Shown here: positions 14,435-59,557 of the stretch, piece by piece
How the letters are laid out: every line of letters begins with the position of its first letter
Numbering within the stretch: the stretch's first letter is position 1
Assembly (NCBI GenBank): GCA_963969365.1
Contig: OZ017757.1
Location: forward strand, 2,356,001 to 2,420,000
Length of the DNA stretch: 64,000 nt
Source: Asterochloris sp. CNOR1
Taxonomy: Eukaryota; Chlorophyta; Trebouxiophyceae; Trebouxiales; Trebouxiaceae
Reading direction: 5' to 3'
Position numbers and translations under genes: made by a program
The notes under the pieces: generated by a model
What the model was told of the DNA's origin: nothing
Database searches by the model: none
What the model saw: the letters and a program-made list of their open reading frames with translations, nothing else

Positions 14435-14825
14435 GTCATTAGCTGAAGGTCCCAGCACCTTGCAGCAGATGACCTCCAGCAACTGCAGCCTGCCCCCTCT
14501 GAATTAAAGGAAAACCACAGCGGTGTGACAGCAAGCTCGGATTGAGCACAGTGCCTACTTTGACGATCTTGTACAATTAGCCGCCTATACTTTTCTGCCC
14601 TTCTTTTTCTTCACCAGCACAAGCCCAACAGCTGCCGCAAAAGCATCTTCATCAGCAACCCATGCAGTCACACCCCTGCAAAATCCCCATCTCTGCACAT
14701 CGCAGGAGAACCTAAGCAGCAGTCACTTCCCTCTCTTTATGTACAGGCAGACACTGGCAACAACGGAAAAGCTCATCGCAGCTGCCATCCATCTGTAGCG
14801 ACACAAGTGTCGCACCAGCAGTGTG

Positions 14826-29356: not shown

Positions 29357-32300
29357 ATGCAGCCATGCTGGCGCACACTAGCGCTACTGCTGCTTGGGCA
29401 CCTCCTGACGACTACCTCACTGGTCGTGGGGCAGCCCGTAAGTCATTGTTTGCATATCTTGTGCAATCAGCCATGAAGCTGCGTGCCGGCATGTGGCTGT
29501 CTGCGATGCTCTGCATCACTGGCCCTTGCACCAAAGGCGTGTGTTGTGCGTTGCATGGGCACCCCCACTGCCAGACAGGAGTGGCCACCTTGCGAAAGCT
29601 GTTTGTACACATCTGCCTGCCAGAGGCTGCGGGCGACCGCCTGGCAGATGTAAACCTGCGTTGGAGGCCTGGCAGCCCATACATAGCCAACAGGCAAACC
29701 TCTCATTACCTGCCAGGCCGTGGCACCCCTTGATGAGCACCAGCTGCTTGGCAGCCATGCATGGCTGACCTGTGCCTGCACCAAACTCTCTTGCTGGTGC
29801 CTGCAGCCACTGCCCGCCGTCTGTGAAAGGCACGCCCTGCCGTGTGGCAGGCATGGCAGGCATGCATAGCTGACCTCTTTTCAGCGGACATACTTGTTGT
29901 CAGTACCTGCTAGCCCCTGGCATCGCCTGCCAGCTGCGCCTTGGCGTGGAGGCCTGGCAGGCATGGCTGACCTCTGCCTGCGTTAACATCTTATATTGGA
30001 GCTTGCCAGCCCCCGGGCTGCACCCCTGCAGGCTTTGGAACTTTGTAAAAGGCGTGGCAGCCATACATAGCTGACATCTTCTCAATAGGCACAATCCTCA
30101 TCAAAAACCTGCTGGACCTTGGCACCGCCTGCCAGCTGCGCTTTGCTGTGGTCACCTCACCTCTGCCTGCACTGACACCTCTTGATTTGGCTTGCAGGCC
30201 CCCAGCACCTCCTGCCAGCTGTGGATGTGTGTCGGAGGCGTGGCGGCCATGCATAGCTGGCCTCTTCCACCAGGCATACCTCTTGTTGGTGCCTGCAGGC
30301 TCCCAGCCCCCCCTGCCAGCTGCGCATTGGCCTGGATGGCTCCTATGGCGTGGCTGCTGTCACCAACAGGTGGACGCCCACCTTCTCAGCCTTCCTCAAC
30401 CAGCAGCTGCAGGGCAACCTGAGCTGCACCTTCACCGTGATGCCCTATGCGGAGCCCCTTGACCTCCTCTCGGCGGCCCATGCCGGGGAGCTCGACTTTG
30501 TGTTTGTCAACCCCAGCCTGCACGAGTGCCTCCAGGTGCGGGGCCTGTGCACAGCGCTGTGGATGTTTGTCTTGACTGTACTGTTCGCACAGTGCCTCCA
30601 GCTCTCATGCCTTGGTGCCATGCCTTTCTGCATAGGCGCGCAAAATCCAGCATGAGGGTCTCCAGGTGCAGGGCCGGTGTGTCTTGGCACATGGGGGTTT
30701 CCTGAGGATGACTGTGATTTGGGCTGCTTGCATGTGTCTCCAGGTGCAGAATGTATGGCTTTGCATGCATCCAGTTGTGCACACCAGTGGGTAGCTTGCA
30801 TGATGTGGAGATGCTCTAGGGCTCAGCTTCCAGGCCAAGAACTTGCCTGCACGAGGGCGCCTCCAGGGACCTTGCATCTGGTCGGCAGCCTGCACGAGTG
30901 CCCCCTGGTGCTGCGCCCTGCCTCTGCATGCTGCTTGTTGCACTGGGCTAGTTGACAAGGGTCGCTGCAGCACTCAAGTTGCCTTGGTGCTGGGAAGGTT
31001 GCTGGGAGACCCCGGCAGCAGGAAATGTTGGCTCCTCTGAGGTGTATTGCATGTACATCTGGCATGGTCCAAGAATTCAGCTTCTGCAACTTGAGCATCA
31101 GCGGCCATGGCAAGGCCTAGTGTGCAGTGCCCTGGGCTGAGCAGCTTCTGACATCCTGGCCATGAGCAAGCTGAAATCCCTGCCAGTAGCCTGGGTGTGC
31201 ATCCGCTGCAGGCAAACGACAGCATCAGCCCACTGGCCACTCTGGTGAGTTACTACAACCCTCCTGGCGTTGCGTGTGACGTGTACGGCGGCGCCATCAT
31301 CGTGAAGGCCAATCGTACAGACCTGAACGTTGTTCAGGACCTCAAGAACCAGGTGGTGAGTGAACATCTGTAACACATAGCTTGCGTACTGCCAGCCTGC
31401 CCCTGGGACTGGTGCTGCCCTGGTGGCATGCTTTCAGCGGGATGCACAAAGCCTGCAGGCCAAGCATTAGCCTGCATCTGACTGCCAGCACCCTGAAGAA
31501 CTTTTTGTAGAGATTGACAACTTTGGTGCATGTCAAGCATGCTGGGGACAGCTCACAGCGTGGGCTGCAGGCTGCCCCAGGCTAGCACTGCCGCTCTGTT
31601 CCCGTGCCAGCTGCAGCCTGCAGCAGCAAAATGCAGCGCGCTGGACTGCGCCATTCCAACATTGTCACCATGAGGTGACCCTGACAGGCTTCTGCATGCC
31701 TGACAGGTGGAGATGGGGTTCATTGATTTGATTTCAGCCTGGCAGATGCAGTATGAGGCGCTCCAAGCGAATGGGATCTACCTCTTTGCAGATGCTAAGC
31801 AGGTGCGATTGCAAGACCTGCATCAAGCCGCGGGGTCTGCTGTCAAACACTTGGGCAGCTTTTCTGGCTGGCATCCACAGAAGCTGAGGCTGCCCGTGCT
31901 GCGACCAGTCTGCAGCCCATGCTGTGCTCAGTGAGAAGCTTAGGGGTCTGCCGTTTTCTCATGGCATGTCAGCAGCAGCCGCAACTCCAGGACACCCAGG
32001 GGACAAGTTGGCAATTGCAGCTAAAAGCGTACCTGTTTCAGTGCAGCAAATGCAGCCACAAGCAGCACCTCAGTACAAAGAACATGACTTTCAGCACCCA
32101 GATGCATCACCACATGTGGCCCTGTTGACATCAGGCAGCACCATTGAGCCCTGAGACAATCGCCAGACGCTGCACCACACAGGAACAACACTCCAGAGCT
32201 GCAGTGCACAGCTCTGCTTCCTAGCCCAACATCCAAAGAGGTGTGTATCCCACAGAACCTCGACTCCACAGCTGTGCTGCTTGCAGGTCATCATGGCAGC

Positions 32301-35300
32301 CACACCCTTCATCCAAGAGGCCAACGATGTCCTTTCTGGCCAGGCCGATGCAGCCTTTGTGCGGGCCGACTGGCTAGCCACTGGCCAGGACGGGGTGGAC
32401 CCCAGCCAATTCAAGGTTCTCTCGGCGGTGAGCCTCTACATATGGGGAGTGTGCTGTGCACACCATCCAGCCCGTGAGACGTGCGTCTGGCAAGTGTCCT
32501 GCCTTGCTGGGCTGCTGCTGAGGGGGCGGGCTGCATTACAGCAGAGGTGGATTGACACTGCTTGCAGGGCCATTGTATGGCATGCTGCCTGGCCTTTGGG
32601 GCAGTACGCAGACAGGCAGGGGTGCCTCACTGGTGTGGGAATAAACTAATCCCTGCTGCTCGCCTGCTGCAGCACACCTACTCAGTCTACCCCTTCAACT
32701 GCAGCACTGACCTGTACCCTGAATGGGCCTTCTCGGCGCTGCCCAGCGTCTCAAAGACCATTCAAGTGGCAGTGGCATCGACCCTCTGGTCGTGAGTGTC
32801 CCACTGCTTGCTGCTTGTGCAAGGACATGTGGCCACAGAACTGCACCCTGGTTGCAAGCATCCCATTACATGGTGCTCATGCAGTGCAGCTGGGTGCTGC
32901 AGCATGCTGACTGTTCTCTGGGCGTGAGTAACCCGCTGCTTGCTGCCCGTGTGGCGCATCTGTGTCCTGCAGCATTCAGCCACGGGATGACTTTCTATGG
33001 TCTGTTGCCTGTTGGTCACACCTCAAAGCAGAGTAAGGCCGAACATGAGCCCTAAGGCCTTCAACTGCAGCGCTGCCTGCTGCTCACCCTTCACGCTGGT
33101 GGGCAGCACTGATTTTGTGCAGGAAACCTCGACCAAGCTGTGCAAACCCCAATGTTCAGGTGCCGCATGTCAGCTGGCCTGTGTCACCCGGTGCACATGC
33201 TGTCATGCAGAATGTCACAGACAGACCCAACCTCGAGTGCTTTTGTGGCTGCGGGCAACTACAGTCACTGGACCACACCAGGATCTTACTTGCAAGTGAG
33301 CAAATAAGGTTGCTGGCTGGGCCTGGACTTTGGCTGGCCTGTTTTAGGTCACATGTTTCACACCAGCAGTGACATGGTCGTTGCACTCTGCACTCTGGGT
33401 GCCTGCATGATTGTGTTGTTCTGCCCGAATGGTTGCTGGCTTGATGCTCATGTGCTCTGCTGTGTTGCTGTTGCCTTCTCTGGAAGCAGCATGCATCGGG
33501 CCAGACACCTTGTGACCTTACTGGCTGTATGTCTCAGAGCCCGTCTGCCATCTCTCGCCTGCTGGCGCTGCTTGCTGCATCCCTGACATTTCTGCTGCGC
33601 TTCCTGCTTCTGCCTGAACTGTTGTGATGCTTGCTGGTTGAGATCGCTCTCGTTGCACCTGGTGGAGAGCTGTGCACAAGCTCTACACACTGAAGCCCCA
33701 ATGTGCTGTTTGCTGTGCATGGCTTCATCTAATGTCATCTGGTGTTGAGCTTTGTGTATGTGTGTGTGTGCAGGTGCACACGCTGCAGAAGGAGGTGGGC
33801 CTCCTGGGCGTTAACGGGACATGTTTGCCAGAAGAGGACCCATACCAGATTGTGGCATGCCCCCCCGGCTTGGTGAAGCTGCCGCGCAGTCTGTGGAGCG
33901 ACATGTGCTCGCGCCATGGCTTGACTTGCCCCCAGGTCAGCGAGCAGCAGGTACAATGACCTTACACCTTGCCCCAGCCTGCTCCCTGCAGCAGGCATGC
34001 AGCAGGCATCTTGTTGCACTGCATTACTTCAGTCTGCGTACTTGCTACACGTCAGTGTGCACACTGCCAGGGCTTCACTGAGCCCCTGTCAGTAAGCAGT
34101 AGGTGCACTGCCCGCATCAGCTTGGCCCTTGTGCATCTGGTTGCAAGCAGGCGTGCACAGGCATCTGGGACGTGACAGATGCACTGCACCTTGTCGCGCA
34201 TGCCAGTGGCTCCTCAAAGCAAGCATGCAGCATGCAAGTGGCTCCTCAAAGCAAGCACGCAGCATGCAGGTAGGCATGTAGACAAGCAGCACCAGCGCAC
34301 AGTGCTGACTTGGCTCAAGTACAGAGGCCCTCTGCCTCTCAAACGCTCACATCTGTGACGTGTGCCCTGGCGGCCTAGCTGGGTGCACCTGCATGGCCAC
34401 ACCACTCCTGTAGGTACCTGGCTCCGCAAACAGCTCCTCACACGTGTCCTGTGCCCTGCAGCCTTCCCCTCTGGGCACGTACCAGTGCATCTGCCAGCCC
34501 TGCGTGCCCCCCATGCCAGTGGGTGGTGCCGCCTTTGGAGGTTTGGGCAAGGCTGGCTTCGCTGGCCTGGTGCTGGCCCTGTTGCTGCTGGTCTCCCTGC
34601 TGGTGTATGTCCTGCTGTTCCACCGGCCTGCGGAGTGGATGCCCCCACGCATCCCCTATGCCAAGCTGCACCTTGGGCGCCATCCGGAGCTGCTGGGAAA
34701 CAGCCGCACTGGGAGGGTGCTGAAGGGGCGCTACAGAGGCAGTGCTGTGGTGAGTGAATGCAAAGTGATCTTTGCATGCTGCTTGGAGGCTGCGTCAGGG
34801 GCATATCTGTGTGGGAGACATGCCAAGTGCAGAGACTTGCCGCCAGGCAGATGGGGACAGAGGTTATCTGCATTGCAGTGGTGCAAGGTTGCACTGGCAG
34901 CCACGCCGCCTGCAGCCACGACAAGGCTGCTGCTGTGTCAGGCCTGGTCCTGTAAGCAACAGCAGAGCTCTGAGCAGCACAGCACCTCACTGGCTGCTGG
35001 CCTGCAGGCAGTGAAGCGTATGCTTCCGCCAGCTGACCCCCTGAAGGCGTCCCCATTCAACCTGGATGCCCCAGAGCTGCTGCGCCTGCAGAGCCAGGTT
35101 TTGGACCGGGCGCTGATGGAGCAACGCAGCACGTTGGAGGACAGGTGGGTTTCTGCAATCAGGTTTGTGGGGCATACTGTTGCCAGTCCAACAGAAAGGC
35201 TGTAGAAGGCAGGTGAGCAGGCTTATGCTCAGCTGATGGGGCCTCAAGGAGCAGCGCAGTCCATCAGAACAGCAGTGAGATTGTGCAGCACCGCTGTGTG

Positions 35301-38300
35301 GGGCTGGGCAGGACTTGCACACCTGTGAATCCTGCAAAGGAGAGCAGGCTCAAGTTCACCCAAGCGCTCATGGCTCCTGGAGCTGCCGCTTGGGGGAAGG
35401 TGCGTCATGGCATAAAGGGAGCCAGAAGCTGGTGGGCTCTGCCATGGCCAACTGAGCATTGCAGGCAAGCTCAGGGACCAGCTCAGTATCCCAGAGGAGA
35501 GGTGGGGTTCGTTATGTCAGTGCAGTGCACTGCTCATGTTCTGTCAATGCCTGTCATTGTTGGCAGCAGATTGTGCTTTGGCTCATCAAGCATTGCAGCG
35601 CCCTTGGGGGGAAAGCAGGTGTCATACTAAAGCTCAGCACCCTTACGCCATAGTCAGGATGCAGCAGCTTGTCAGAATGCTGACTCGAGAAGCCCTATGA
35701 CGCATCCCGTTATCAATCATTGCTTTTGCAGGCCCTGGCCTATCAAAGTCATGGCGGGCTTGTGACAGTCATGCTGTAATTGACTATCACTTAATGATCA
35801 GATCCTGCTTGGTGCTGATTCAGGCTCCTATCTCTCACAGTTGCGGCTGATAGCAGCTGTGGCACAATGCTTGACGGCTCGTGGCCTGTCATCACTCCCT
35901 GGATCTCATTACAAGCTGCCGCAGGCCACTGTCCATCACTGCAGCCGGCAACACACCCTGCCATGCTCCCCCAATAGCTACTTCATCGGATCACTTGTTA
36001 TCAAAGACAGCCTGTGATTGCTGTAGGTGCTGTGCATCACTATGTCAGCTGGCAGCGCCCAGGCGTCCCGGCCATGCCTCACCTTGAGTGTTGGGTCCCT
36101 CAGATCGTTGATTTCTTGAAAGCAGTCTGTGACTGCTGCAGACCATTGTCCATACAACCATGGCCGGTCCACCTCGCCCTGCTTCACCCAATCATGTGTC
36201 ATCCCTCAGATCACATGTGAATGTGGTACAGCCTGTGACTGCTGCAGGCCATTGTCCATCACGATCGCGGGCGGCTCACCTCACTGTGCTTCACCCAGGG
36301 GTGCAATCCCTCAGATCACTTGCTTTTTTCCAATGCAGCCTGTGACTCCTGCAGTCTGTTGACCATCATATATGCAGGCGGCCAACCTCGCCAAATTTAC
36401 CCAATGGCGCAAACTCTCAGATCATTGATTCCCTGACTGCAGCTTCTGACTGCTACAGGCTGCTGTCCACCGCGATTGTGGGCAGCTCACCTCACTGTGC
36501 TCTACTCAAAGGTATGATGCCTTAAGTTACTTGTTTCTTGCAGCCTGTGATTGCGGCATTCTGCTGTCCATGTTAGTTGCAGACGGCCAACCTCGCCAGC
36601 AGCATCACCAGTGATGTGACCCCTCAGATCACTGAATTTGTTACTACAGCCTGTCATTGCTGCAGGCCTTGTCCATCACAACTGCAGCTGGCGGCATCCA
36701 GCCCGCCTCACCATGCCTCGCCCAATCAACTCTCTATGAGATCAGTAGTTCACAGAACGTAGCCTGTGCATCCTGACGTCCACAGTTGCTGACAGCCCAC
36801 CTTGCCGTGCTTCACCTAACGCCGAGTCCATCAGACCATCTGTGTACTGAGTACTTCTTGTGACTGCTGCAGGCCAGTGCCCATCACAGTTGTGGCTGGC
36901 AGCGCCCTGCCGAAGCCCTGAGACCCCCCTGCCATGCATCACTGGGTGGCCACTTGTTCAGGTCAGTGCATCACAGAAACAAAGCTTGTCGCTGCCTGCA
37001 GGCCGCTGTCCATCACCATTGCAGCTGGCAGCGCTCTGCCGACCCCAGGAACCCCCCTGCCACGCATCACCTCAGGCATCAAGCCCTCCCCCTTGGAGGG
37101 AGTGTCCCTGGACAAGGGCAACAGGGACTCCCTGGACATGCGCTTTGCCAGCCTCAGCCTGATCCAGGTGGTGGGCAGCTCAGGCTCGGTGGACTCTGAG
37201 ATCAGCGCCGGCACCGTCTCATCTGTGGCACCCAGGTGGCAATGGTTTGTGCTGGCCCGGCAGCATCCCCTGGACATTGTGCCAGAATTGCCTTGTCTGT
37301 GGTGGCAGGTGGGCATATTGGAGAGCTTTCCATCAGGCGTGTTTGTCAGCATCTTTGCCTGGCAATGTGGCATCAGCACCAGCCCTGAGTACGCATGTAA
37401 ACCTGGCTATCGGCGGCCTGTCAACAGTCTTTGAGGTTTGCGCTGGCCTTGTATCATACGGGCCACCCAGGTGGGTGGCTATTCGGGTCACGCTGGCTGA
37501 AGGCAGGCACCCTTCTCCCTCTGATATCCTTGATTGTGAGGAGCCTGACTGCTTCGCAGACAGCTGTCACTGTTCACGGGTCGAGAACTGTTGTGTAACT
37601 CAGCCAGACAACAGGAGATTCTATGACTAGGAGCGCCATCTGCACCATTAGACAGTGGAAACCCTTCTGCACATCTGTGCCTGCATCATCTTTGAACTTT
37701 CCGGATGTGTGCCTGTCTTCAGTCCTCGCACAGCCATCTGCCTGCCTGAAACACATACTGAGGGCGTTGTTGCTTCCAGGGGTGTCATACCGCATATGAG
37801 GCAGCAATTGCACCCACGGCACTGGGCGCGGCGGCTCGGGGGCCACACCAGAGTCGCCCTCAGCCCAGCAGCTGCCAGACAGCGACGCAGAGTCGTTGCG
37901 GTGAGCGGGGCCCCACGCATGCTCTGCAGATCTGCAGCGCAGGGTTGCGCTGCACATGCTGCCTTCACAAGCCCTCTAGGGAAGCATATGAGGCTGCCAC
38001 TTACAGTGCTGTCCCAGAAGCAGTGCATGTATGCAAGCATGCAGCACACCAAGCTTGCTTGCAACGAAGCCTATGCAGCTGTGTGGTCAGTCAGGCTGCT
38101 ATGGCTCCCCAAGAAAGGGTTTCGGCAAGTGTGCATCACATCAGGCGGCTTCCACCGGCCTGGCCTGTGCTCAACAAGAGATTGCAGTTTAATCCTGTCT
38201 GGCACTGGTAGGGTAGGCACAACCCCAATTGGAGGGTTGGTGGCCTGCGCTTGGTGCTTCACTCACAGCGCAGCTCCTGGCTGCAGGCTCTGAAGGAAGC

Positions 38301-41300
38301 CGCTCAGTGTGTCCAGTTGCGGCATCCCAACATTGTCAGTCTGCTGGGGGTGTCACAGGAGCCTGGCACAATGGACTGGCTGCTGGTCATGTCCTGCTTG
38401 GAGCGGGGCACACTGGCTGACCTGCTTCAGAATGAGATGGTGGAGCTGGTGAGCTGCTGCTCTCCCACATATGACAGGCTGCTGGTCATGTTACGTTTCA
38501 AGCCAGGCATGTTGGCCGACCTGTTCCAAATCAAGATCATGCAGCTGGTGAGCAATTTTACCCCCAGCATCTGACATGACTGTTAGAGTGGTAAGCTGCC
38601 TGGGAGGCGCCTTCAAGGCATGCGGTGCGCATTGTGGGAAGCTGTTGTGTTGGGCACCTGTGTGCCCAGTAACCGGTCATGTCCTGCCTGGATCAGGGCA
38701 CACTGGCAGACCTGCTCAGGGTGGTGGAGCTGATGAGCTTGATTTCCTGCAGCAAGTCATGTGAAGGCTGCATGAGAGACCATCATGGCACTTCTCCGCA
38801 CGAAAGGTGTGTGGTGGGCAAGTGTGCACCTCAATGCTTTGTGACTGACATTTGAATGCTGGAGAGTCGACCCGCTGCAGACTAAGATGGCCGAGCTGGG
38901 GGGTGCCTTCACCAATTCATGCTGCACATACAATCATGCAACTTGCACCTGCTTGCCTGCTACCAGGCAATGCTGGTGGAAGAACCTGCCGCACAGCAAG
39001 ATAGCGTGGCATTGGGTCAATGTTGGAGACGCAAATCAGCAGGTTTTGTAGGAAACTGTCGTGGTGGGTATATATGGACTAGGGAGTGAGCTGGTGAGTG
39101 CCGGCCTGATTGGTGGTGAGTGTGCTGCAGGTGTTGTCCTTCTACCTTTGCCCATGCCTAGATGGGCCCATGCGTAGTGCTCTGAGCAGCTGTTGCACAG
39201 CATATACCCACATGCTTGTCCTGAAGGATGCAGAGATGGGCCTATGCATCCTGCCCAAAGCAGTCGCTAAAGAAACACAGCATACAGGGATCATATTTGC
39301 CCTCCATCATGCAGAGGTGGGCCTGTCCATTTTGCGCAAAGGAGCTGCTGCAGGCACGTAGGATGAACCTCCCAGAGCTGCCCTGCAAGATGCAGAGATT
39401 GGCCTGTGTATTCCGCCCAAAGCAGCTGCTGCTCAGCAGATCATACAGTCCCCATGATGACCCTGCAGGATGCAGAGATGGGCCTTTGCATCCTGCGCGA
39501 TGCTGCAGCGGGCATCAACTATCTGCACCATGCACAGCCCCCTATAATTCACACTATGTTGGAGCCGAGGAAGATCATGCTGGACGCCAACTACCGGGGT
39601 CAAGTCGTGGCCATGCCCGTCCCTGAGGTGGGCCTGCACTACATGTGCGCGGGCAGCAATCTGATGCCTTTGTGCATTCCAAGCATTCCAAGGCGGCGCG
39701 CAGGGCAGCAATCTGTGGCCTTGGCGCGCTTCAGTTCATGTTTCAGGTCCTGGCATCTGTCTCTGACCTGGGCCTGGGCCTCACAGGTCTTGGCCCTGAG
39801 GTGAGGCTAGCCTGTGCTGCTGCACCAAAATTGCCCGACACACTTCCTAGCCTGCGCCTGGGGGTTCCTCCGCCACATCCTCCATCAAGACGCGGTCAAG
39901 GATGCACTCGAGGAAGGGCTGCAGCCATAAGGGTGCTGCAGGCATATTCAAGGGGGCTGCTGCTTACCTCTGACTGCCAGGTGCCTTGAACTGCCATCTT
40001 GGGTTGCTGCTATCCTGGTCATACCCACCTTTTCTATTGCCAGCAGCTGTGGGTTGCGGTGACTGCTGACAGACAGCGCTTTGTTCTTCAGACCAGATCT
40101 CAGTGCACGCTGCTTGGTCTCAGTGCATGCTGCCGAAAAGATTCCCTTGCTTGTGTGCCTGACGGCGCCTTGGGGGGTTGATGTGCCAGATAGCAATTCT
40201 TACGGCAGGGCAGCAGTGACCACACAAAGTTCAGTTGTGTGCAGTGCAATGATAAATGAGTAACGTCATGTATGCCTAGAGAGTGCTGCGTGCACCTGTG
40301 TCGCAATGGATGCAAATGCAAACCTGATGGCAGCGCAGCAATTGAGCAAGTTCCTGTGCCTGCAGGCGCCTCGAGAGGAAGGCTCTCCCTCAGATGCTGA
40401 GCAGTGCTGGAAAGCGCCGGAGCTGCTGCGCTGTGATCCCCCCGCAATGGCCAGCGATGCCTACGCCTTTGGCATGATCATCTTTCAGATGCTGCAGCGG
40501 GCGCAGCCCTTTGACGGGGAGAACCCAGAGGTATCTGTTTTTTAAGGGGGCTTCCCAGCGTCTTACTGACAATAGTCCGGCCGACACCAGCAGGAAGTGC
40601 CAGGCCATTGTATCCCTGCCTCTGCATGACTTGCTGGCCAGATTTGAGGCCATGCTGGGCCTTTTACATTGCGAAAGGTGTGTGTGGCATCTTGCAAATT
40701 GGGCTGGACATCAGCGGGCGCTTATCTGCGCTGCTTAGTTGAGAGGAACCCTGTACGACTATTTCGGCATCCTGGAATTACCTTGGAGTGCATGGATACT
40801 CAGCCGTCGCATGATGTGTGCTTGACCTTGCATGCGCATGAGACCCTTCTCAGAAAGCCAGTACCTCTGTTCTGGCCATGCAGACAAGAAGAGCCAGTCA
40901 CAGTGTAGTATTGATGCAGTGAGATGTTGGCCATGCAGAAGGTTAATGTGGCAGTTGCACAGGGTGCAAGTGCCCTGCAAGTGTGGGCCGGCTTGCAAAG
41001 TCAGGAATCCCTCTTTGCTGCCCTTTGTGTGCTGACTTTGCAGAAGGTGTTATGGCTTTAGCAAGAGCCTGCCTGGGCGCTTGACCCTGCAGGCGCCTAG
41101 CTCTGCATTCTTGGCCCTGCAGGAGGTGATGCTGGCTGTTGCAGAGGGCAGTGTGCCACCCAAGCGGCCGCAGCTGCGGGCGGTGGCCAACGATGCGCTG
41201 CAGCCACTGGTGGACCTCATGGAAGACTGCTGGGCTGAGGTGGGCCGAAGCAGCTTCTGTTGAGACTGGCGTGCCTCACATGTGTCAATCGGACCTCAGA

Positions 41301-44300
41301 GTGAAGTGCCCATGGGCAAGGAGCAAGGGGTGGCCCCAATACCTGTTGTCTGCAATGATCAGGGCATGCCTGCATAAGCACTCTGCAACCACAGCAGATG
41401 TCACCAAGACGTGCTTTGCTGAGATGAGGCAATGCAGACCTGGTGCCTCCAGCAGGCAGGGCTTGCATGACCCAGTTGTGTCTGCGGTGTGTGGTGCTTG
41501 GGTACGGTGGCAAGAGCCGCTGCTGCAAGCTGCAGCCGACTAGGGGTACCAGCACAGCCCATGCTCTTGTGCAAGCGCGCAGTCCCATGATTGCTGCGCT
41601 GAGGTGAGGTGCTGTGAACATGTTGCAGCAGTGGAGCTGTGCGTCATGAAACTGTGCATGGCTACTCGTTGCATGGCTCGAAGCACAGCAGTTCTGCAGG
41701 CAGCACCACTCCATTGACTCCTGCTGAATAAGCGGCTGCTCTGCATAGCCACATTGATCAGGAGACCTGCATCAAGTGGTGCTTGACAGCCCCTGTGCTG
41801 CAGAACATTCAAAGGACGCCTGGCAGGGTCCAGCCATATGGGCGCACAGCTGGCCAGCACTGGTCTTTGTGTTCCTGACATCCCAGAAGCTGGCACCTTC
41901 AACACCTTGCTGGGATGTTTCAAGAGCGCCGCGCCTTCCAGCTTCAGGAACCCCAGGAACTGGCTGCCTGCAGGAGCCCTCATCACGGCCAGACTTCAAC
42001 CAGATCGAGGCCCGCCTGGCCTCGATGGGCACAGTTCACGGCAGCATGCAGGAGGCCCACCGCGCGCGGCAGCAGGACCGACAGCTACTTGATCAGATGC
42101 TGCCACCTAGGGTGAGTGCTGTTGGAGAGGGCAGGACGGACCCACGTCTGACTGTGCAATGCATGGCTGTGGGCTGTGCAGCAGCAGACTTGTCAGCCAG
42201 GGTGCTGGCTGACACAGGTCGGCTGACATGGGCTGGCCTGCCAGCCAGGATGCTGGCTGACACAGGCTTCGGGGTGCTGGCGACATGTGCCGCTTTGCTG
42301 TCATGGCACTGTACTGCTGCTGTGGATGATATCGTGCTGCCTCTGTTTTGCAGAACGTGATGCTGTGAGGGGTGCTGCGTCCGCCAAATTGTCCGCCAGC
42401 TGACCACGTGACAATGGCGCCTGTACAGATGTGTCAGCCCTTGCCCAGACATCTCTTGCTCTACAGGTGTCTGCTGCCCTCAGAGCAGGGCGCCCAGTGG
42501 AGCCTGAGTCCTACCCATGTGTGACTATTTTCTTCAGTGATATCGTGGGCTTCACTCAGATATCCAGCTTGTTGCGACCAGCAGAGGTGAGCTCCAAACT
42601 GGCAGCCGCCCTGGTGTCTCACTGGGCTACTTCATGCAAGCAGTGCTGCCAAATGGCTACCTGGGGCAGTCATACATTCTTCACCAGCGCTGCCAGCAAC
42701 CAGCCGACAGGACTGGGCTGCTGGAAGGTGACAGTAGCATGACGCACACCTCGCCCCCATTTACGACCACTTAGAGACTGCTGTGGCTTCGTGGCTGTGA
42801 TGTGACTGGCATGCGCCGCGCTGACAGACGCACCTTGCGTGCTGCGCAGGTGATGCAGCTTCTGGATCGTCTTTACACCAAATTTGACCAGTTGGTCGCT
42901 CAGTATGAGCTGTTTAAAGTCGAAACGATAGGTGCGTACCTGTGGCTCTGGCCCTCTGTGGACCCAGAAGCTGGCACCACTTGTCGGACAGCCATTGGGC
43001 AGAGGGCAGCAGCAAACACCACTCACCCTGGCTGTGCCTGTAACCGTGCTGTGACAATGTGTCAGGCCTGCACATGCCGTGGGGCCACCTCACACATCTA
43101 GCACCTTTAGTTGACCTGAGCCTGCCGCTTCTTGTCCAGCAGCCTCAAGTGCAGGGTGGCCCCACTACCATGGGGGGAGTGCTGAGGCTGAGCTGATGTC
43201 TGCTCCAAACGCCAATAGGTTCACAGGAGACATGCTGCCCCTCAGTGCGCACTTGTTCCAGGGCCGCCTTGCTCGAGTCTGCAGGGACTGCATTCATGTA
43301 AAGCACAGGCAGCATGCCAACCCCCATCACGCGCCTGCTGCCTAGCCTCTGTTCGGCTGTGGTCTCTGCCTGCCTATGGCTGCAGACGAAGATGTTGTGC
43401 TCAATTACACGGCCGTGTCACCCTGGCATCTTGGAGCCTGCTGAGAATGAGCAACTCTCAGCCTGCCTGCCTGCTTGTATCTGCAGGAGACCCCATGCAG
43501 CATTGGTACATCGCTTAGGCCTGCCTGCACATGAGCCTGCCGGCTGGCCTGTGGGTGCAGGGCATGCTTGCATGTGCACAGGCCATATGCTGCCTTTGAG
43601 CATGACGCTGGTGTCCTGAACGCATTGGCAGAAGCTTGTCTCAGCTTGCCCGAGTCTGCAGGGGACGCCTCGCATGTGCACGGAAGATATGCTGCCTTGC
43701 AGCATGAGTCTGCTGCACAGCATGGCTTGGCAGCGTCGTGTCTCAGCCTGCTTGCGTGCCTATGTCTGCAGGGGATGCCTACATGTGCACAGGCAATGTG
43801 CGGGCCCCCCAGCGGGACCATGCTGCCCGCATCGCCCGCTTTGCCATTGATGCCGTTCATGCTGCCAGTGAGGTGGCCATCCGGGAAGGGGATGAGGCCA
43901 TGGGCACAGTCAACATCCGCGCTGGTGAGGCTTTCAATCTCAAGTGCACTGCATGAAGAGCAGGCATGGAGTGTGCTGCTTGGGGCTGCAGCCCTGCCCT
44001 GTCTGCATAGCAGGATGTGTCGCAGAGAAGGGGGAGCCGGTGGGCACAAGGGCCAGCAAACTTGACATGTTTGCACAGCAATCTGGTTTGCACTGCCTGA
44101 GGATGGCGCCGAGACTGACCTGCAATGCATGGGCTTTGACGAAGCTGCAGGTGCAGCAGTGCAGCATGAGCCAGCCCATCGACCTCAGATGACAGCAGAC
44201 ATGGGCGTCCTGTACTCAGCTGCCTGCAAATTTGCCCTCTGTCCCAGTGGTGGCCTCAGCTGCGGCCTGCAGAGCAGCCCTTCTGCCCCAAGCCTGGGGG

Positions 44301-45971
44301 GGGGGGGGGGGGGGGGGGGCAAAGTCTACAGCAGGCTAGCAAGCCAGCTCGGCTGGAGTCTCCGCCAGCACACACCACAGGCTGCTGACTTTCCTGTACC
44401 ATGGGTGCTGACTTCCAATCTTGCCTGAAAAGGAGGAAAGCAGGCATTCCCACCCTTGCATAAATCTCTGCAGGCTTCCACTCCGGCCCAATAGTGGCCT
44501 CAGTCGTGGGGCGCACTAACCCGCGCTTCGCCCTCTTTGGCGATGCTGTCAACACAGCTTCCCGCATGGAGTCCACCAGCATCGCAAACCGGGTGCAGGT
44601 CGGTGTGCTGGCTTGGACATGATCTTAGGCCAGCGCTTAGCCGTCTGTAGCCAGCAGTCAAACCACAGCTCAACAGCACAGCAGCTGGCCCTGCCAGCAA
44701 TGTCTTATGCAACTGCCAAGCACGCGTCATGATGACCCACACCCCTGTGATTCCTGCAGCCATTGCCGCCAGTTCACAATTCTGGGCGGCCAGCATGGTG
44801 GCTGCTCTTTGGCATCATGCATCACCCAGGCAGCAGCTCTGCTGGTGCCTGCCGGCGTACATCCATGGCTCTGCCACCCCTGGCCGCCCCTTCTGACCTG
44901 TGTTGTTTACGTGTGATCTGCAGGTCTCTCGTGCAGCCGCAGAGTTGATCGTCTTGCAGGCCCCTGAAATGAGGGGCCTGCTGACGCGACGCACAGGGCA
45001 AGGGGCTGGGGTGGGAGCCAAGCTGGGGCTGCGCACGTACTGGCTGCAGGTGCAAGAGGTGAGGCAGGGGCCAGCCAGAGGGGCGGCTGTGATGTCCGGG
45101 GCCAAGATGGGGCTGCGCACCTACTGCCTGCAGGTGCAATAGGTGGGCTGTTGTAGGGCTGCATGCTGGGGTTGCCCAAGGGTTGCTTGGACCGCTCTCT
45201 AGAAGTCCCTGACGTGGCGTGGGGAGCAGAAAGCTGTGGTGGTGGCCGATCTGTGGCTGCGCACCTGGTTGTAGGTGTATGAGGTGGGCTCTGTCAGGCC
45301 TGCCTGCTGTGGGTCTGCCAGGGCAGCCCTGCTCGCATGAAGCAGATGGTGTGGCACCTAGGGCAGGACAGAGGGGTCAGCGAGTGGGGGCCAAGCTGTG
45401 CTTGCACGTCTGCTGGCAGCAAGTGGTGAGGCAGGGTGCAGTGCACATCCCTTGTGATGGGCTGGCTGGGTGTGTGATATGGGTCTTCCAGGCTTGCAGC
45501 AGCTGCTGCTGTCGTGCAGCTGAGCTGCATGTCCTTTACTCACGGGCACTGCATACTCCTGGCTGCCTTCCTCATACAGGCAGGTAGGCACTGCAAGCCA
45601 CCCACCCAGGTGTCTAACTGCCCATCGGGATCCCCCCGCACACCATGCAGGCTTCCCCATCAGGGCTGCGAATGTCAGCCGCTTCCAGCGTGACAGAATT
45701 TGGGGGCGGACCCCGCTCGCAGCAGGCAAACCCCCTGCAGGAGCTCAGGGCCGCCTCCCGTCGCGGATCCTGTGCCTCCCTGAGCCTCAGCATTGCCTCA
45801 GGCGACTCTGTGAGCAGCATACAGGGCAGCAGCGAGCGGCGGCACTGCTCAGACCCTGCAGAAATTACGCTGTCGCGCAGTACGCCCAGCCTTGCCAGGA
45901 GCGCCAGCGGCGCCCTGGCCCTGCAGCCTGATGCAGCATCCCTGGCCAACAGTGCTGGCAGCGTCTTCTGA
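29357..45971 (+). CDS. Receptor nucleotidyl cyclase A: PhnD-like sensor, TM, pseudokinase, class III cyclase
   Basis: Twenty-three exons: 29357-29437, 30299-30535, 31212-31355, 31707-31802, 32287-32427, 32673-32791, 33211-33295, 33774-33935, 34462-34749, 35008-35144, 37002-37235, 37780-37900, 38287-38448, 39469-39627, 40366-40530, 41123-41239, 41974-42111, 42467-42586, 42850-42931, 43772-43924, 44474-44598, 44924-45058, 45651-45971. All phases close (1173 residues). A signal peptide spans 1-27. A PhnD-like solute-binding fold covers about 34-320 ([42 protein letters not shown]), followed by the CICQPC motif, TM 386-408 and kinase homology about 430-815. The kinase keeps the VAVK Lys454 but has HTM for HRD (697-699), Lys704 for the loop Asn and no DFG. 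After linker LLDQMLPP, the cyclase (863-1067) has Asp887, Asp931, Glu927 and Arg1011, with Ala1000 where guanylyl cyclases have Cys. The tail is Ser-rich ([11 protein letters not shown]). Predicted plasma-membrane receptor making a cyclic nucleotide inside. Confidence 0.9.
29640..30298 (+). repeat. Degraded tandem copies of exon 2 start (cyclase A intron 1)
   Basis: Five or so units of roughly 110-150 bases carry variants of the exon 2 start (CCTGCCAGCTGCGCATTGG) and the bases before it (CATGCATAGCTGACCTCTTC). The last copy is the functional acceptor at 30297-30298. Confidence 0.65.
35880..37001 (+). repeat. Array of about ten degraded copies of exon 11 start
   Basis: Units of about 105-120 bases repeat the acceptor and first codons of exon 11 (CTGCAGGCCGCTGTCCATCA, then GCAGCTGGCAGCG). 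Copies begin near 35921, 36020, 36137, 36240, 36350, 36455, 36555, 36655, 36775 and 36865; the real exon starts at 37002. A second conserved spot (CCTCAGATCACTTG) lies in each spacer. Confidence 0.8.
38449..38760 (+). repeat. Two degraded copies of an exon end (cyclase A)
   Basis: The 3' half of exon 38287-38448 ([16 protein letters not shown], followed by GTGAGC) is repeated at about 38478-38553, with its own GTGAGC, and again at about 38672-38745. Confidence 0.75.
39225..39468 (+). repeat. Three degraded copies of exon 14 start (cyclase A)
   Basis: The start of exon 39469-39627 (GATGCAGAGATGGGCCTTTG) recurs at about 39227, 39309 and 39389, at a spacing near 80 bases. Confidence 0.75.
43540..43771 (+). 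repeat. Degraded copies of the cyclase metal-motif exon start
   Basis: The start of exon 43772-43924 (GGGGATGCCTACATGTGCAC, encoding the GDAYM metal-binding turn) is repeated at about 43555 and 43660. Each copy has a TGCAG or similar acceptor just before it. Confidence 0.75.
44296..44319 (+). repeat. Poly-G run of 24 in a cyclase A intron
   Basis: Uninterrupted run of 24 guanines on the plus (coding) strand, between exons 43772-43924 and 44474-44598. It could form a G-quadruplex in DNA or pre-mRNA. The exact length is prone to sequencing error. Confidence 0.9.
45059..45470 (+). repeat. Three degraded copies of an exon end (cyclase A)
   Basis: The end of exon 44924-45058 ([15 protein letters not shown], followed by GTGAGG) recurs at about 45098-45141, 45235-45282 and 45385-45428. 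Each is followed by a GTGGGC- or GTGAGG-type donor. Confidence 0.75.
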
Positions 45972-46315
45972 CAGAGGCAGTCCAAACCACTGGAGTCTCA
46001 GCAGCCTACTCCCCCTAGTGTTTCTCTTCTGGTCTGGTTGGCGTCTGCCCATGCTCCCGCTCCCCGTGCAATTGTTTTATTTTCAGAACTGCAATAGAAG
46101 ATTGTGCACTAGGTTCACATATCTCTGCAAGTTCATCTTGTCTTTGAATGACATTTGCAATCATTCTGACCCAAGCTCTGATTTCATGTGCCACCAAACA
46201 ATATGACAAGCATATATGACAAGTTGCACTGAGGGGGGCAGAGGTTGGCATCCAGCCAAAATGCCAACCGATGAGACAGGACACAAACTTGCAATGCTAG
46301 CAACAGAAGGCAAGG
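45972..46315. other. Convergent spacer between the two receptor cyclases
   Basis: Only 344 bases separate the two stop codons, so the 3' UTRs of the paralogues must share or overlap this segment. It is AT-richer than its surroundings. No TGTAA poly(A) signal was noticed for either gene. Confidence 0.7.
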
Positions 46316-52300: not shown

Positions 52301-55300
52301 GGCATACAGCTGTAGCAAAGCTGCAGCTGGGCGGTCAAGGCTTGCAGTGCCTGCAGTGAGGGGCAGGGTGAGACTTGCTGAGCGAGCAAAGATGGCAGGC
52401 TGGGACAGTGCAGTGGCAACTGGACGGCCATGGATCAGAGCATCTGCAGGTGAGCGAGGCAGAGAGCCTGGTATGAGCAGTTGAACCCTGACACGAACTC
52501 TGACTGAGCCTCAGCTGGATCGCTGTGGCTTACAGCGACCAACAGGCATGGTGCGTCATACCATGAACCACAATGGACAGGCGCAGTGTCACTGCTTGCC
52601 TTGCAGAACAGCAATGCATGCCAAGCAGAAGCGTGACAGAGGCCTTACAAGGGTCAGCTGCCTTTGCAAACAGGAGGCAAGGCACCCAGACCAAGATTGA
52701 CCAGGCAGGCCCTACAAAGGGCAGCTGCCTTCTCAAGGGTAGGCAAGGCACTCCAGCCAAGATGGAGTGGGCAAGCCCCACAAAGGCCAGCTGCCTTCTC
52801 AGCAGCAGGTAAGGCACCCAAGCCAGCAGTGCCAGGCAGGCCCCACCTGGGATCGTTTCCTCCACTGTGCAGGAGACGCAGCCTGTGCCACGGCCAGCAG
52901 TCGGTGCCACAGCATGCTGCAGCAAGTGCAGCGCGGGGCCTGCAGGCTGGGCCACTGCCTTGGCTGGGGCCCCAGCAAGGACGACTGCCTGCAAAGCCAA
53001 TGTCAGCTGATGAGTTGTGGCGCTGCCTGGGACAATTCGTTCCTAAATGTGGGCTGTTGGGCTGCTGCCTACATGGGCCCTCAGCAAAGGAGGCAGCCTG
53101 CAGAACCACTGTTAGCTGTTGAGCGGGCTATGTTTACAAGAGGTGGTCTCCAGCTTCACAATGACTCCTCTGGGCTGTTGCCTGGACTGGGGCTAACCCG
53201 AAAGTTGTAAGGCTGGACACAGAAGGCGACAGCTTGGTGTTGCAGGAAATGGGCGGGCATGGACCTGCCTGCGCAGCTGACCTGGCAGATGGCAGGCGTC
53301 GCCAGGCGTGGGCCACCTCGCTGCCAACTTTAACCTCAGGCACCATCTGTGGTGACTTGGCAAAGAGCAGGCACAGACCTCTCAGCTGCCCACCCATGCA
53401 GACCAAGCTGATATGGCAGCCACCAGGATGAGTATCCTCCAGGTCCTGGTCAAGGGCAGATGATGCCAGCGTTGTTCATGTCCGCAGCTGGGCTCGGCTG
53501 GCAAGCAACACCTCCACTGCCCCGGCAGAGAGCAGGCTTGGTTGTCCCTGCTGGCAACTCTTGGTGCCCAGACTAACCTGATGCAATCAGGCCCGGCTTA
53601 CCACTGCTCATGCAAACTGCCAGGCACCAGGCCAGCTGCCCTGGCCTAGAGTAGGGCCTGAGGTCGCGTGCAGGGGACCAGCCTGACCTGAAAAAGGGCA
53701 GACGCTGCCAGCGTCGAGCGTCTCGGCTGCTGGGCTCCGCCGACAACACAAAGTTGTTCTCCGCGTCCGGCAGCGCAAGGCTGGCGGCTGGGGACAGCAG
53801 CGGCGCCGGCTGCGCAAGCACGCTCTTCACGCGCCCCACCAGCTCCGCATGCGGGCTGCTGTCTGTAGGGCGCATCGAGCTTTTTCTGCGGGGCGCCACT
53901 CGGCTGCCCAACTGCCCAGAGGCTGGCACAGCATCTGGAATCATGGTGACTGGGGCTGCATCGATGGGGCCATCCGTGTCAAATATGGAGGCCAGCTTGC
54001 AAGCGCTGCGTGGCAGCAGGCGCTTGACGCACACGCTGGTGCCGCGGTAGCGCCCCAGCAGGACCCAGCCATATCGCCCCTTGCCCAGGATCTGCGACCT
54101 GCAGGCGGATATTGCAGAGTTGGGGAGACTGCAGGAGTGCTCCCAGATAGTTCCAGCCATACTGCCCCTTTCCCAGGATCTGCGATCTGCAGGTGGACAC
54201 CGCAGAAGTGGAGGGGCTTCAGCAGTGTGCCTAGCCAGATACAGCTTTACTGTCCCATGCCCCGCAGGGATTTACAACTCTCCTTTTGTGTCAGCAGGAG
54301 AAGTCCTCCCTTGTCTCAAAAGCCAGCCTGAAGGGCTGTAGAGGTCAAGGGTGAGCCAGCACAGGTGGAGCAACAAGCAGGCTGGGGCACAGCCACCTCT
54401 GTGCTGAATCTTGTGGCTTTCACACTAATGCAGTCAGTGTGACCTTCTCAAAAGGGTGTTGCTGCTAGTGGGTGCTGCATGAGCAGCGCTGCTGACTAGC
54501 CTCACCTGACAGGCCTAACCCACCTTATATGGACGGGCCCTTGCCAGTGGACTCTTGCAAATCTGCCCACCGGGACATCAGAAGAGGCCCTTGCAAACAG
54601 GGCGCTGGCAGGCCAGGCCATCCTACACTGACCTGACCTTCACATAGAGCACGCCGCGTCCTCTCACCTAGCAGCTAGCCCCAGCTCAGTAAAGGCAATG
54701 TGGGCTGGCCCCTTGACCGTAGGCAGCTTGCAGAGCAACAGCAACACACCTCATCTGAACAGGGCAGGCCGATTCTTCTCACCTGGCGTTCAGCCCAAGC
54801 TCATGGAAGGGAACGTGTGCGGGCCCCTTGGCTCGCAGCAGCTTGCAGAGGACCAGCATTGTGATGGCAACCACGAGAGCCAAGCCCACAACCAGCGCAA
54901 CGAGACCGCCGACGCCCAGTTCCCCGAACTTGTCGTCGTCAATGGCAATGATGCTGCAGGGGTTGCACACACAGGTAGCTCCCTGCAGGGCCAGGCAGGC
55001 AGAGTGTCTGTGCTCACAGGCCCACAGCGAAACAGTGAGATGCCTCCCACATCAACATGGTGGGAAAGAGAAGGGAGGCATTCAGGACGCTTTGTGCTTG
55101 AGCTATCATGGCCCAGAGTGTCAGTGTTCACAGGCCCGCTGCGGTCAGTGAATCCCCCCACATCAACATTCTGGGGAAGAGAAGGGAGGCATTCAGGACG
55201 CTTTGTGCTTAAGCAATTGCGGCCAAAAAGTCGACAAAGGAGCACGCCTGGTAAAGGGTCAGGCAGGCAGGGCGTGTTGCGGGCAGGCAGCTCATGTGCA

Positions 55301-58300: not shown

Positions 58301-59557
58301 GAGCTCCCGCCACTCCGACAGGCCCGAGTTCAAGGTTACAATGCTCGCCATGCTGATCTGCACAGCAGGAGCACTGACTGCCAGACCAGAACAGTCTTGA
58401 AGGTCACATTGGAGCAGTGTTCGACAATGGGAGCCTCCAGCAAGGCTGCTGCTGCTCTGGCCTGTCAGTCTCCCCATACCAGTCGCTCAGCATCCCATTT
58501 GCAGTAGCGGCCAATGAGCACTGCCATCAGCAGCAGCGTGCAAGCACCATCTGAGGTGCCGGCACGGCAGCACAGCGTGGGCGCACAGCAGCAGATCAGG
58601 TGTTCTTGCCCATCACTCCCATGCTCTTACCCTCTGGCCAACGATGTTTGCCAGCTCGACCAAGTCATCTCGTGAGGACAGCGCAATGGCCGCGCCAGCC
58701 TGCTGTGTCAAAGACTGGTTTCCATATTGAGTCACAATGCTGGCCAGGGGAGACGCGTCCAGGGAGCTCTGCAGCAGCCACAGACAACCTCTTCAGGGCC
58801 CCCAGCATGTCGCCGCACCGTTTCCATGCTGTGGGCGTGTGCGGCTGCGTCATAGGCTGCAAGGCACCCTGAAGGCGCGCTGTCCTGCTGATTCAGGCCT
58901 GCCTCCATGCTCCCCCAGCATGAAGGCAGTCTGCGATGCTCCTGGGGCTGCACGTGCAGCCTTCTGTGCCATCCAAAGGCTCACCTCCAGGCAGACGTGC
59001 AGGGCAGGATTGGAGTACATAAACTGCAGCTGTGAAGCATTCACGGCAGTGAACACCTGCCTGCAGGGCAAGCACTGCACATGTTGGGCCCCCAGCCTGA
59101 CAAGCTGCCGAGTTGATGGAGCACAAACACAGTCAACAGTGCCAGCACAGACCTGGTTGACGTGAGGGGCTGCATCGTGAAAGTGCAGCCCAGGCGCTGA
59201 GACAACTCCTCATTGAACAGCTCTACAAACGTGTAGTTAAACTGGCTTTGTGCCACGTCAACGCCCTGGGTTGCATCAATGCCAACTGCGCAGGCACAGC
59301 TCAGTCATGAGTGACACACAGGACGCAACTGCAGCATCAGATGACAGGCTGCCGCAGACCCGTGAAATTGCAGCCATCTGAGAACCCCTGCACAGGACAC
59401 ACATTCCTGGATCAAGGCTTTGCTTGACGGGCAGCACATTGCAGCAGCCTGTGAGGAGGTGTACTCATTGCATCAGTCACTGCAGAAGCCAATTGGCCCT
59501 GCAGCTCACCACGACCAGGCAAAGAAGCCCCAGTGGCCCGAGTTGCACCCTCCTCAT
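46316..59557 (-). CDS. Receptor nucleotidyl cyclase B: PhnD-like sensor, TM, pseudokinase, guanylyl-type cyclase
   Basis: Twenty-five exons, 5' to 3': 59557-59510, 59387-59360, 59285-59153, 59060-58985, 58768-58631, 58357-58262, 57565-57422, 56479-56364, 55922-55852, 55595-55432, 54982-54783, 54098-53688, 52988-52847, 52082-51933, 51248-51078, 50527-50366, 50115-49987, 49769-49626, 48745-48626, 48307-48258, 48130-48099, 47963-47950, 47686-47548, 47135-46807, 46651-46316; 1180 residues, all phases close. Same domain order as cyclase A: signal peptide, PhnD-like sensor ([26 protein letters not shown]), CVCNPC, TM 362-384, kinase loop GKGRYGWV with Lys430, HQE for HRD (671-673), Lys678 for Asn and DVV for DFG (691-693). 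The cyclase keeps Asp866, Glu906, Asp910, Cys979 and Arg990, the guanylyl cyclase set. Exon 52988-52847 is the least certain. The C-terminus is Ser-rich (KRPSSLF). Confidence 0.88.
47950..47963 (-). other. 14-base micro-exon encoding GDAYM of cyclase B
   Basis: Fourteen bases flanked by an AG acceptor (minus strand, ...CCTGCAG) and a GTGAGC donor supply exactly the metal-binding DAYM turn. Joined to its neighbours it restores [16 protein letters not shown], which aligns without gaps to [16 protein letters not shown] in cyclase A. Confidence 0.85.
48965..49005 (-). repeat. Degraded copy of the cyclase-domain exon start
   Basis: In the intron upstream of exon 48745-48626, a minus-strand stretch reads [13 protein letters not shown] after a GCAG acceptor. 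It mirrors the real exon start [13 protein letters not shown]. Confidence 0.75.
50700..50760 (-). repeat. Degraded copy of the APE-motif exon start
   Basis: A minus-strand stretch reads [11 protein letters not shown] upstream of exon 50527-50366, whose start reads [13 protein letters not shown]. Confidence 0.7.
52139..52370 (-). repeat. Two degraded copies of exon 52082-51933 start
   Basis: CAGCTGCCCAGCTGCAGCTG, the core of the real exon start (ATAAQLQL), recurs on the minus strand at about 52200-52160 and, more degraded, at about 52357-52308. Both follow TGCAG-like sites. Confidence 0.65.
52640..52846. repeat. Tandem repeat, about 72-base unit
   Basis: About three units containing GGCAGCTGCCTTCTCA and GGCAAGGCAC lie in a cyclase B intron and run into the donor of exon 52988-52847 (GTGGGG, minus strand). 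Confidence 0.7.
54114..54275 (-). repeat. Degraded copies of the glycine-loop exon start (cyclase B)
   Basis: The real exon (54098 downward) opens [19 protein letters not shown] copy at about 54196-54150 still reads [16 protein letters not shown], and a third, more degraded copy lies near 54275-54232. Each follows a TGCAG or CCTGC acceptor-like site. Confidence 0.85.
55001..55228. repeat. Two-copy tandem repeat, 114-base unit
   Basis: Copies begin at 55001 and 55115 (AGAGTGTC[T/A]GTG[C/T]TCACAGG) and stay very similar to their ends (GGGAGGCATTCAGGACGC). They lie inside a cyclase B intron and are the youngest-looking duplication in the window. Confidence 0.9.
56480..57330 (-). repeat. Degraded repeats of an acceptor region (cyclase B)
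   Basis: The real acceptor at 56480 (plus-strand TTCCTCTGCAGGGCAGCAC) is echoed at about 56585, 56628, 56757 and, more weakly, further up to 57300 (CTCTGCAGAGCAGCA, CCTCTGCAGATG, TCTCTGCAGAGG). Confidence 0.5.
59360..59387 (-). other. 28-base micro-exon joining signal peptide to sensor (cyclase B)
   Basis: Encodes GFSDGCNFT plus one base. It is the only phase-compatible link I found between the signal-peptide exon (ends phase 0) and the sensor exon (enters phase 1). The product [13 protein letters not shown] aligns with [13 protein letters not shown] of cyclase A. The donor (GTCTGC) is weak. Confidence 0.6.

Follow-up and report, generated by a model that had tools for sequence, protein, structure and literature searches.

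Results

Two probable receptor cyclase genes lie tail to tail

The DNA considered here (the window) is a stretch of 64,000 nucleotides, with 0 ambiguous bases, from the green alga Asterochloris sp. CNOR1 (contig OZ017757.1, positions 2,356,001 to 2,420,000), and it contains a pair of related genes that probably encode receptor guanylyl cyclases. Gene A occupies positions 29357-45971 of the + strand (25 modelled exons, 1231 residues) and gene B positions 59557-46795 of the - strand (23 modelled exons, 1029 residues). Both models end in a single terminal stop, all of their introns are GT-AG (median length 505 bases in A and 295.5 bases in B), and the genes face each other tail to tail, with 823 bases separating the end of A at 45971 from the end of B at 46795 (Table 1). 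A first-pass annotation, made from the letters of the sequence, had already proposed such a pair, and its coordinates proved correct. The homology of the two genes was confirmed by blastp of the open reading frames (ORFs) of one region against those of the other, with 16 matches at E <= 0.01, of which 15 form a series that follows the gene order from the ectodomain through to the cyclase, while one (E 0.006) breaks it. On non-overlapping regions there were likewise 16 matches (best 1.65e-22), and the controls gave three matches on the wrong strand (best 0.008) and one with reversed DNA (0.008). Since the gene models come from an exon-chaining script that was anchored on this homology, and were then corrected by hand, the chain of exons is not independent evidence for it.

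When the full products were scanned with Pfam, three domains were found in the order Phosphonate-bd (PF12974), kinase (PF07714; E-values of 4e-26 in A and 2.7e-32 in B) and Guanylate_cyc, all above the cut-offs (remaining E-values in Table 1). A hydropathy scan over 19 residues with a cut of 1.6 showed one strong membrane span per product (A 378-413, B 356-391) and, in A, an extra weak hydrophobic stretch at 681-699 (1.61), within the doubtful exon 14. Of the two signal peptides proposed in the first-pass annotation, that of A (residues 7-25) was recovered by the same scan, and that of B, which falls under the cut, was recognised by eye. Between sensor and membrane lies a collar that has seven cysteines in both products (A 318-369, B 300-347), the last three of them in CICQPC (A 364-369) and CVCNPC (B 342-347). 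By eye, the spacing of the collar cysteines is EGF-like, with no Pfam match, and such a collar seems to be absent ahead of the membrane in bacterial sensors. The first 375 residues contain 6 N-glycosylation sequons in A and 9 in B.

On the inner side of the membrane, the HRD of the kinase homology domain is replaced by HTM in A and HQE in B, so that the phosphate-transfer aspartate is missing in both. The motif LLDQMLPP stands ahead of the cyclase in each product (A 912, B 790). In animal receptor guanylyl cyclases a signalling helix joins the dead kinase domain to the cyclase, and loss of the helix abolishes both activity and dimers, according to the part of the source available (PMC1592074); by analogy, LLDQMLPP may be part of such a helix. 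The order typical of receptor guanylyl cyclases (leader, one span, kinase homology, linker, class III cyclase) is present in A and in B, where the leader was seen by eye, and each of the features previously listed for the pair (solute-binding domain, CxCxPC, one strong span, kinase homology, LLDQMLPP and class III cyclase) was found in both.

Table 1. Modelled exons of genes A and B, with the features that they encode (positions in the window)
Feature	Position	Strand	Support
A exon 1: start codon and signal peptide	29357-29437	+	Hydropathy 1.74
A exons 2-7: TtrS-type Phosphonate-bd (PF12974) ectodomain	30299-30535, 31212-31355, 31707-31802, 32287-32427, 32673-32791, 33211-33295	+	Pfam E 4.6e-16, profile contest, tree
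A exon 8: collar cysteines 1-4; alternative donor 33950	33774-33935	+	
A exon 9: CICQPC, the membrane span and the first part of kinase homology, all in one exon	34462-34749	+	
A exon 10: kinase beta3 (AVKR), loop start	35008-35144	+	
A exons 11-12: low-complexity kinase insert, doubtful	37002-37235, 37805-37900	+	Exon prediction only
A exons 13-18: kinase homology domain, HTM for HRD, SDLG retained; exon 14 doubtful	38235-38448, 39052-39115, 39440-39627, 39747-39800, 40366-40530, 41123-41239	+	
A exon 19: end of kinase homology and linker LLDQMLPP	41974-42111	+	
A exons 20-24: class III cyclase	42467-42586, 42850-42931, 43772-43924, 44474-44598, 44924-45058	+	Pfam E 1.4e-46
A exon 25: Ser-rich C-terminal tail with the stop; junction with exon 24 doubtful	45651-45971	+	
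B exon 1: start codon and short hydrophobic leader	59557-59510	-	By eye, under hydropathy cut
B exon 2 (28 nt): cysteine equivalent to A Cys33	59387-59360	-	Phase and alignment to A
B exons 3-9: TtrS-type Phosphonate-bd ectodomain	59285-59153, 59060-58985, 58768-58631, 58357-58262, 57565-57422, 56479-56364, 55922-55852	-	Pfam E 5.3e-21, profile contest, tree
B exon 10: collar cysteines 1-4	55595-55432	-	
B exon 11: CVCNPC and membrane span	54982-54783	-	
B exons 12-16: kinase homology domain, HQE for HRD	54098-53688, 52095-51933, 51248-51078, 50527-50366, 50115-49987	-	
B exon 17: end of kinase homology and linker LLDQMLPP	49769-49626	-	
B exons 18-23: class III guanylyl cyclase domain and stop	48745-48626, 48307-48258, 48130-48099, 47963-47950, 47686-47548, 47135-46795	-	Pfam E 8.9e-54

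The ectodomain is of the bacterial TtrS type

In both products PF12974 was the sole ectodomain family at E <= 0.5 in Pfam, which places the ectodomains inside the solute-binding superfamily; no type I periplasmic-binding-like ectodomain was found in that search. The first-pass annotation had proposed just this, a bacterial-type ectodomain of the PhnD superfamily where animals have a type I fold, and for genes rich in introns the proposal is supported by Pfam, by the profile contest and tree given here and by the introns that A and B share (see below). Judged by sequence, the ectodomain belongs with the TtrS-type bacterial sensors and not with the phosphonate-binding PhnD proteins. Both ectodomains had their best NCBIfam match in TtrS, a sensor histidine kinase for tetrathionate (E 1.3e-13 for A and 4.1e-22 for B), at 50 bits (A) and 78 bits (B), far under the full-length family cut-off of 750 bits; Pfam found no HisKA in the full products, so neither is a TtrS kinase by whole-protein standards. 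The phosphonate-transporter family of NCBIfam gave no match for A at E <= 0.01 and a match of 0.0049 for B.

We then compared profiles made from 40 bacterial sensors and from 18 transporter PhnDs, which scored A at 176.1 versus 15.7 bits and B at 156.8 versus 26.0 bits. The 40 sensors themselves scored 30.0 to 103.9 bits on the transporter profile and, since every one of them reaches at least 30 bits, A and B are farther from the transporters than any of the 40 is. In a tree of 59 rows A and B formed a group (100/100), 17 transporters stood apart (100/100), and A and B fell together with 16 sensors (95/95). An S-T-x-x-Y-P segment is common to A, B and the sensors, and the column of its leading S is gapped in all 17 transporters; an N-P motif is likewise present in A, B and the sensors, where 15 of the 17 transporters have G. 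The earlier identification of S-T-x-L-Y-P-E-W as a sensor-kinase motif of bacteria was correct. The invariance of DLYPEWAF among the sensors is biased, because loci L005-L011 were found with gene A patterns that included DLYPEWAF.

The sensors come from the phylum of a Rhodospirillales metagenome-assembled genome (G001), the genomes of L006-L010 and four plasmids; with sampling this narrow, a bacterial donor cannot be named. Two of 42 sensor ORFs were left out to give the 40, namely L018 (a short best single match, on an Aliarcobacter contig) and L020 (a short ORF ending in a stop); L037 is among the 40 and is absent from the 39-row alignment A3. The transporter profile was made from 18 of 20 loci, after L055 and L064 (<10 bits) had been dropped. 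L061, a 735-residue ORF that scored -2.2 bits after it was cut to 420 residues, was kept in that profile and left out of the tree and of the column counts, which have 17 transporter rows.

Such sensors (E <= 1e-20) were found in 36 of 398 genomes sampled in the phylum of G001, and ectodomain searches of a plasmid collection returned 106 and 111 matching records. Among the 40 plasmid matches listed, 27 are annotated as TtrS or sensor histidine kinases, six as ATP-binding proteins, four as proteins of the PhnD/SsuA family and one as hypothetical, and two are without a feature. The best plasmid match of A, from Azospirillum thermophilum (2e-22), adjoins genes for a response regulator, trxC, dsrO and nrfD, and a match on an E. 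coli plasmid adjoins ttrA, ttrB, ttrC and ttrR. The domains found in the 40 sensor ORFs, several of which are cut by the end of the locus, were, among 25 families listed, Phosphonate-bd (40), HisKA (25), HATPase_c (24), GGDEF (7), EAL (2) and SpoIIE (2). A profile of the A and B cyclases found no class III cyclase in the 42 bacterial sensor ORFs (best E 0.88; several cut by the locus end), so the join of sensor and class III cyclase is unseen in the bacteria sampled.

The cyclase half

The two best matches in the PDB of the kinase-cyclase half of B were guanylyl cyclase C (2.7e-69) and ANP receptor 1 (6.1e-64), both extending through the kinase homology domain and the cyclase. A and B have the glutamate of the guanine site (KVETIGDAYM), at which all of 30 bacterial cyclases compared have lysine (these were the best-scoring loci of 80 sampled genomes, not a random draw). 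The guanine-site cysteine is present in B (RFCLFGD) and is alanine in A; B, in turn, reads SDVPDF for SDIVGF at the cyclase P-loop. The P-loop glycine that is changed in B also differs in 9 of the 30 bacterial cyclases, none of which has aspartate there. Both genes retain the metal aspartates and the N and R of NTASRM.

Shared introns and the age of the probable fusion

A and B are 43% identical across 1001 aligned positions, and 64% in the cyclase. Of the 24 introns of A and the 22 of B, 11 are identical in position and phase; five of these interrupt the ectodomain and six the kinase-cyclase part, and the duplicated ancestor was therefore intron-rich and most likely already a fusion of sensor and cyclase. 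An ancestor with introns in both halves before the duplication counts against bacterial contamination, and also against a fusion that took place after the duplication.

Decayed tandem copies of adjacent exon edges were seen in introns of gene A (39208-39503, 29737-30341 and 45014-45145) and of gene B (54066-54262); in one such array four 54-nt copies lie about 81 nt apart, the last of them at the start of exon 15 of A. The exon borders look as if they had been repeatedly duplicated. Further tandem arrays in gene B introns, at 55000-55214 and 52640-52843 (111 nt x 1.9 and 66 nt x 3.1), have no demonstrated link to exon edges.

Fold and pocket residues

The ectodomain of one bacterial relative, L005, was modelled from seven sequences with a mean predicted local distance difference test (pLDDT) of 83 and a predicted template modelling score (pTM) of 0.75; residues 198-212, adjoining the STDLYPEW segment, have a pLDDT <50. 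The solved structures nearest to the model were PtxB (first), HtxB, ArrX and PhnD, and profiles of the bacterial sensor relatives led to the same set. PtxB and PhnD hold phosphorus oxyanions by S-T-S and H, among others, as stated in the available part of the source (PMC5700983). At these columns the transporters have S in 17/17, T in 15/17, S in 12/17 and H in 16/17; the corresponding residues are L, I, S and F in gene A, which retains one of the four, and T, L, N and Q in gene B, which retains none. The bacterial sensors also vary here, with the first S in 19/40 and the last H in 15/40. The conserved G-G and E of the sensors are lost in both genes, reading S-A and A in A, N-S and Q in B.

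Other features of the window

Directly upstream of gene B, the ORF at 60000-60389 (- strand) resembles, on inspection by eye, the C-terminal region of a membrane transporter, which we take to be nucleoside-transporter-like; 60009-60239 had no Pfam match at E <= 0.01. Elsewhere we observed pieces of a pyrroline-5-carboxylate reductase (3159-5028, + strand; F420_oxidored 4e-05, P5CR_dimer 3.7e-22), a LYR-motif protein (5947-6276, - strand; Complex1_LYR_2, 1.1e-12), a MORN repeat match (11889-12107, + strand; 2.5e-05) and a weak match to a dual-specificity phosphatase (26687-27031, - strand; DSPc 0.0014, under the cut-off). A series of Gln/Ala-rich ORFs with a high coding score, coiled-coil-like by eye, occupies 12900-24000 of the - strand, of which 22609-23439 is without a Pfam match.

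Discussion

We consider it likely that A and B encode two paralogous receptor guanylyl cyclases that cross the membrane once, with a TtrS-type sensor, a dead kinase homology domain and cyclic GMP (cGMP) as output. What would be new is that a receptor guanylyl cyclase, in itself a known kind of protein, bears a bacterial TtrS-type ectodomain. The sensor, which would be two-lobed with the type II solute-binding fold of the PhnD superfamily, may close outside the cell on a small, probably anionic, solute. Closure would then be transmitted through the collar, presumably rich in disulphides, and the one membrane helix, after which the two cyclase domains of a putative dimer would be aligned by a coiled linker together with the kinase homology domain, itself without catalytic activity, to yield cGMP. 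If this is true, the kinase-homology/cyclase module also serves organisms other than animals in combination with another sensor, of bacterial type, and is therefore re-wirable by a swap of the ectodomain; the alga gains a candidate class of small-solute receptors that signal directly through cGMP; and it becomes testable which solutes are sensed and by what mechanism a sensor of two lobes acts on a cyclase through a single membrane helix.

Several observations weigh against this explanation. Several exons are predictions only, and the models are least certain at exons 11, 12 and 14 of A and its last exon join, and at exon 2 and the exon 12-13 join of B. In the tree A and B have long branches and an unusual amino-acid make-up. 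Fifteen columns are conserved in 90% or more of the sensors, one of them past the point at which A and B were trimmed; 11 are retained in A and seven in B, and with such drift of pocket residues ligand binding may be lost or changed. Given the alanine of A at the cysteine site and the SDVPDF of B, either protein may be altered or weak in catalysis.

One may also ask whether the layout is in fact common among green algae or amoebae and has simply not been published, or exists only as machine annotation. We regard this as a serious possibility, a little short of even, and it is compatible with the explanation above. The closest precedent found comes from Acanthamoeba, in which 67 nucleotidyl cyclases combine an extracellular receptor domain and a single membrane helix with kinase domains, according to the part of the source available (PMC4053784). 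Against it, no description of a Phosphonate-bd or TtrS-type ectodomain on a cyclase was found among the matches listed from the open literature, a search that left subscription papers mostly outside.

Another scenario is that A, B or both have decayed or can no longer signal, and act only as dominant or scaffold partners. The missing guanine-site cysteine of A, the changed P-loop of B and the decayed exon-edge copies in the introns would fit; one would then have to explain frames that are open over 25 and 23 exons, the retention in both genes of the metal aspartates, of the glutamate at the guanine site and of N and R in NTASRM, and the 64% identity of the cyclases, and we think the scenario unlikely.

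The catalytic differences might instead reflect a division of labour. Guanine is proposed to be read by the glutamate and the cysteine, and the loop of each monomer gives its aspartate to one site and its glutamate to the other (PMC2576301, in the part available); with such shared loops, an A-B dimer would have one fully canonical site, made of the metal loop of A and the guanine pocket of B, and one altered site. An extended version, in which a eukaryote captured a bacterial two-component sensor onto a receptor guanylyl cyclase and the paralogs split these duties as a heterodimer that answers a sulphur-type or other small oxyanion directly with cGMP, appears to us rather improbable. The complementary-site heterodimer was demoted as the leading explanation since the glycine changed in B also varies among bacterial cyclases.

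Alternatively, a gene for a solute-binding protein, either secreted or anchored, and an adjacent gene for a membrane kinase-cyclase could have been duplicated together as an inverted segment that only resembles one gene. The models of A and B rest on genomic sequence, some of the kinase-insert exons are weak, and an inverted two-gene block would likewise keep order and shared introns. We nevertheless give this little credence, since the ectodomain exons run in compatible phase into the exon with the end of the collar, the span and, in A, the start of the kinase, the seven-cysteine collar is kept in both copies across the supposed gene border, and in bacteria the sensor is followed, by eye, by a hydrophobic, membrane-like stretch within the same ORF.

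A phosphonate or phosphate receptor guanylyl cyclase would accord with the name of the Pfam family, with nearest structures (PtxB, HtxB, ArrX and PhnD) that are small-oxyanion binders and with the third S of S-T-S, retained in A. The first-pass annotation had called phosphonate or phosphate the obvious ligand. That guess is weak, as S-T-S/H is mostly lost in A (three positions) and wholly in B, even if many bacterial sensors also lack these residues; TtrS was the best named family, and the transporter family gave no match for A at E <= 0.01 and one of 0.0049 for B; and the tree places both with the sensors. On the profile contest, the tree and the motif check we rejected it as first choice, and now find it very unlikely. 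The likeliest class of ligand might rather be sulphur oxyanions or similar small oxyanions, a tentative and still doubtful lead from kinship and gene neighbourhood. As for other origins, a fusion with a bacterial cyclase was rejected as the source on the absence of any class III cyclase match among the 42 sensor ORFs, and a giant-virus origin because scans of viral contigs gave no relative in two cases and five cyclase loci in the third, none with a sensor domain in the DNA examined; a fold search of viral models with the L005 model gave 14 matches at E <= 0.001, none named cyclase (five of the 14 nameless or uncharacterised).

Comparison with known systems

PhnD, PtxB and HtxB, like the arsenic-related ArrX and AioX, are separate binding proteins. 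They belong to the PF12974 superfamily and include the structures to which profile and fold searches with the bacterial sensor relatives led; the 17 transporter PhnDs differ from A and B in that S-T-S and H are mostly kept and the segment leading into STxLYPEW is gapped. The Acanthamoeba cyclases resemble A and B in having an extracellular receptor domain, one helix and a kinase adjoining the cyclase. In the available part of their description, the cyclase is flanked by two kinase domains, a layout also present in amoeba-infecting giant viruses (PMC4053784), whereas A and B carry a single kinase domain, before the cyclase, and in Pfam no second one after it. TtrS-type bacterial sensors share with A and B the ectodomain sequence, the S-T-x-x-Y-P and N-P motifs and the position ahead of a membrane stretch; they differ in their outputs (HisKA/HATPase, PAS, GGDEF, SpoIIE or EAL) and in having the G-G motif and conserved glutamate that A and B lack. 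Finally, animal GC-C and ANP receptor 1/GC-A have, like A and B, one span, kinase homology without the HRD aspartate, a linker and a class III cyclase with the guanine-type glutamate (and, in B, the cysteine); unlike these animal receptors, A and B carry an ectodomain of the Phosphonate-bd/TtrS type and an extra seven-cysteine collar.

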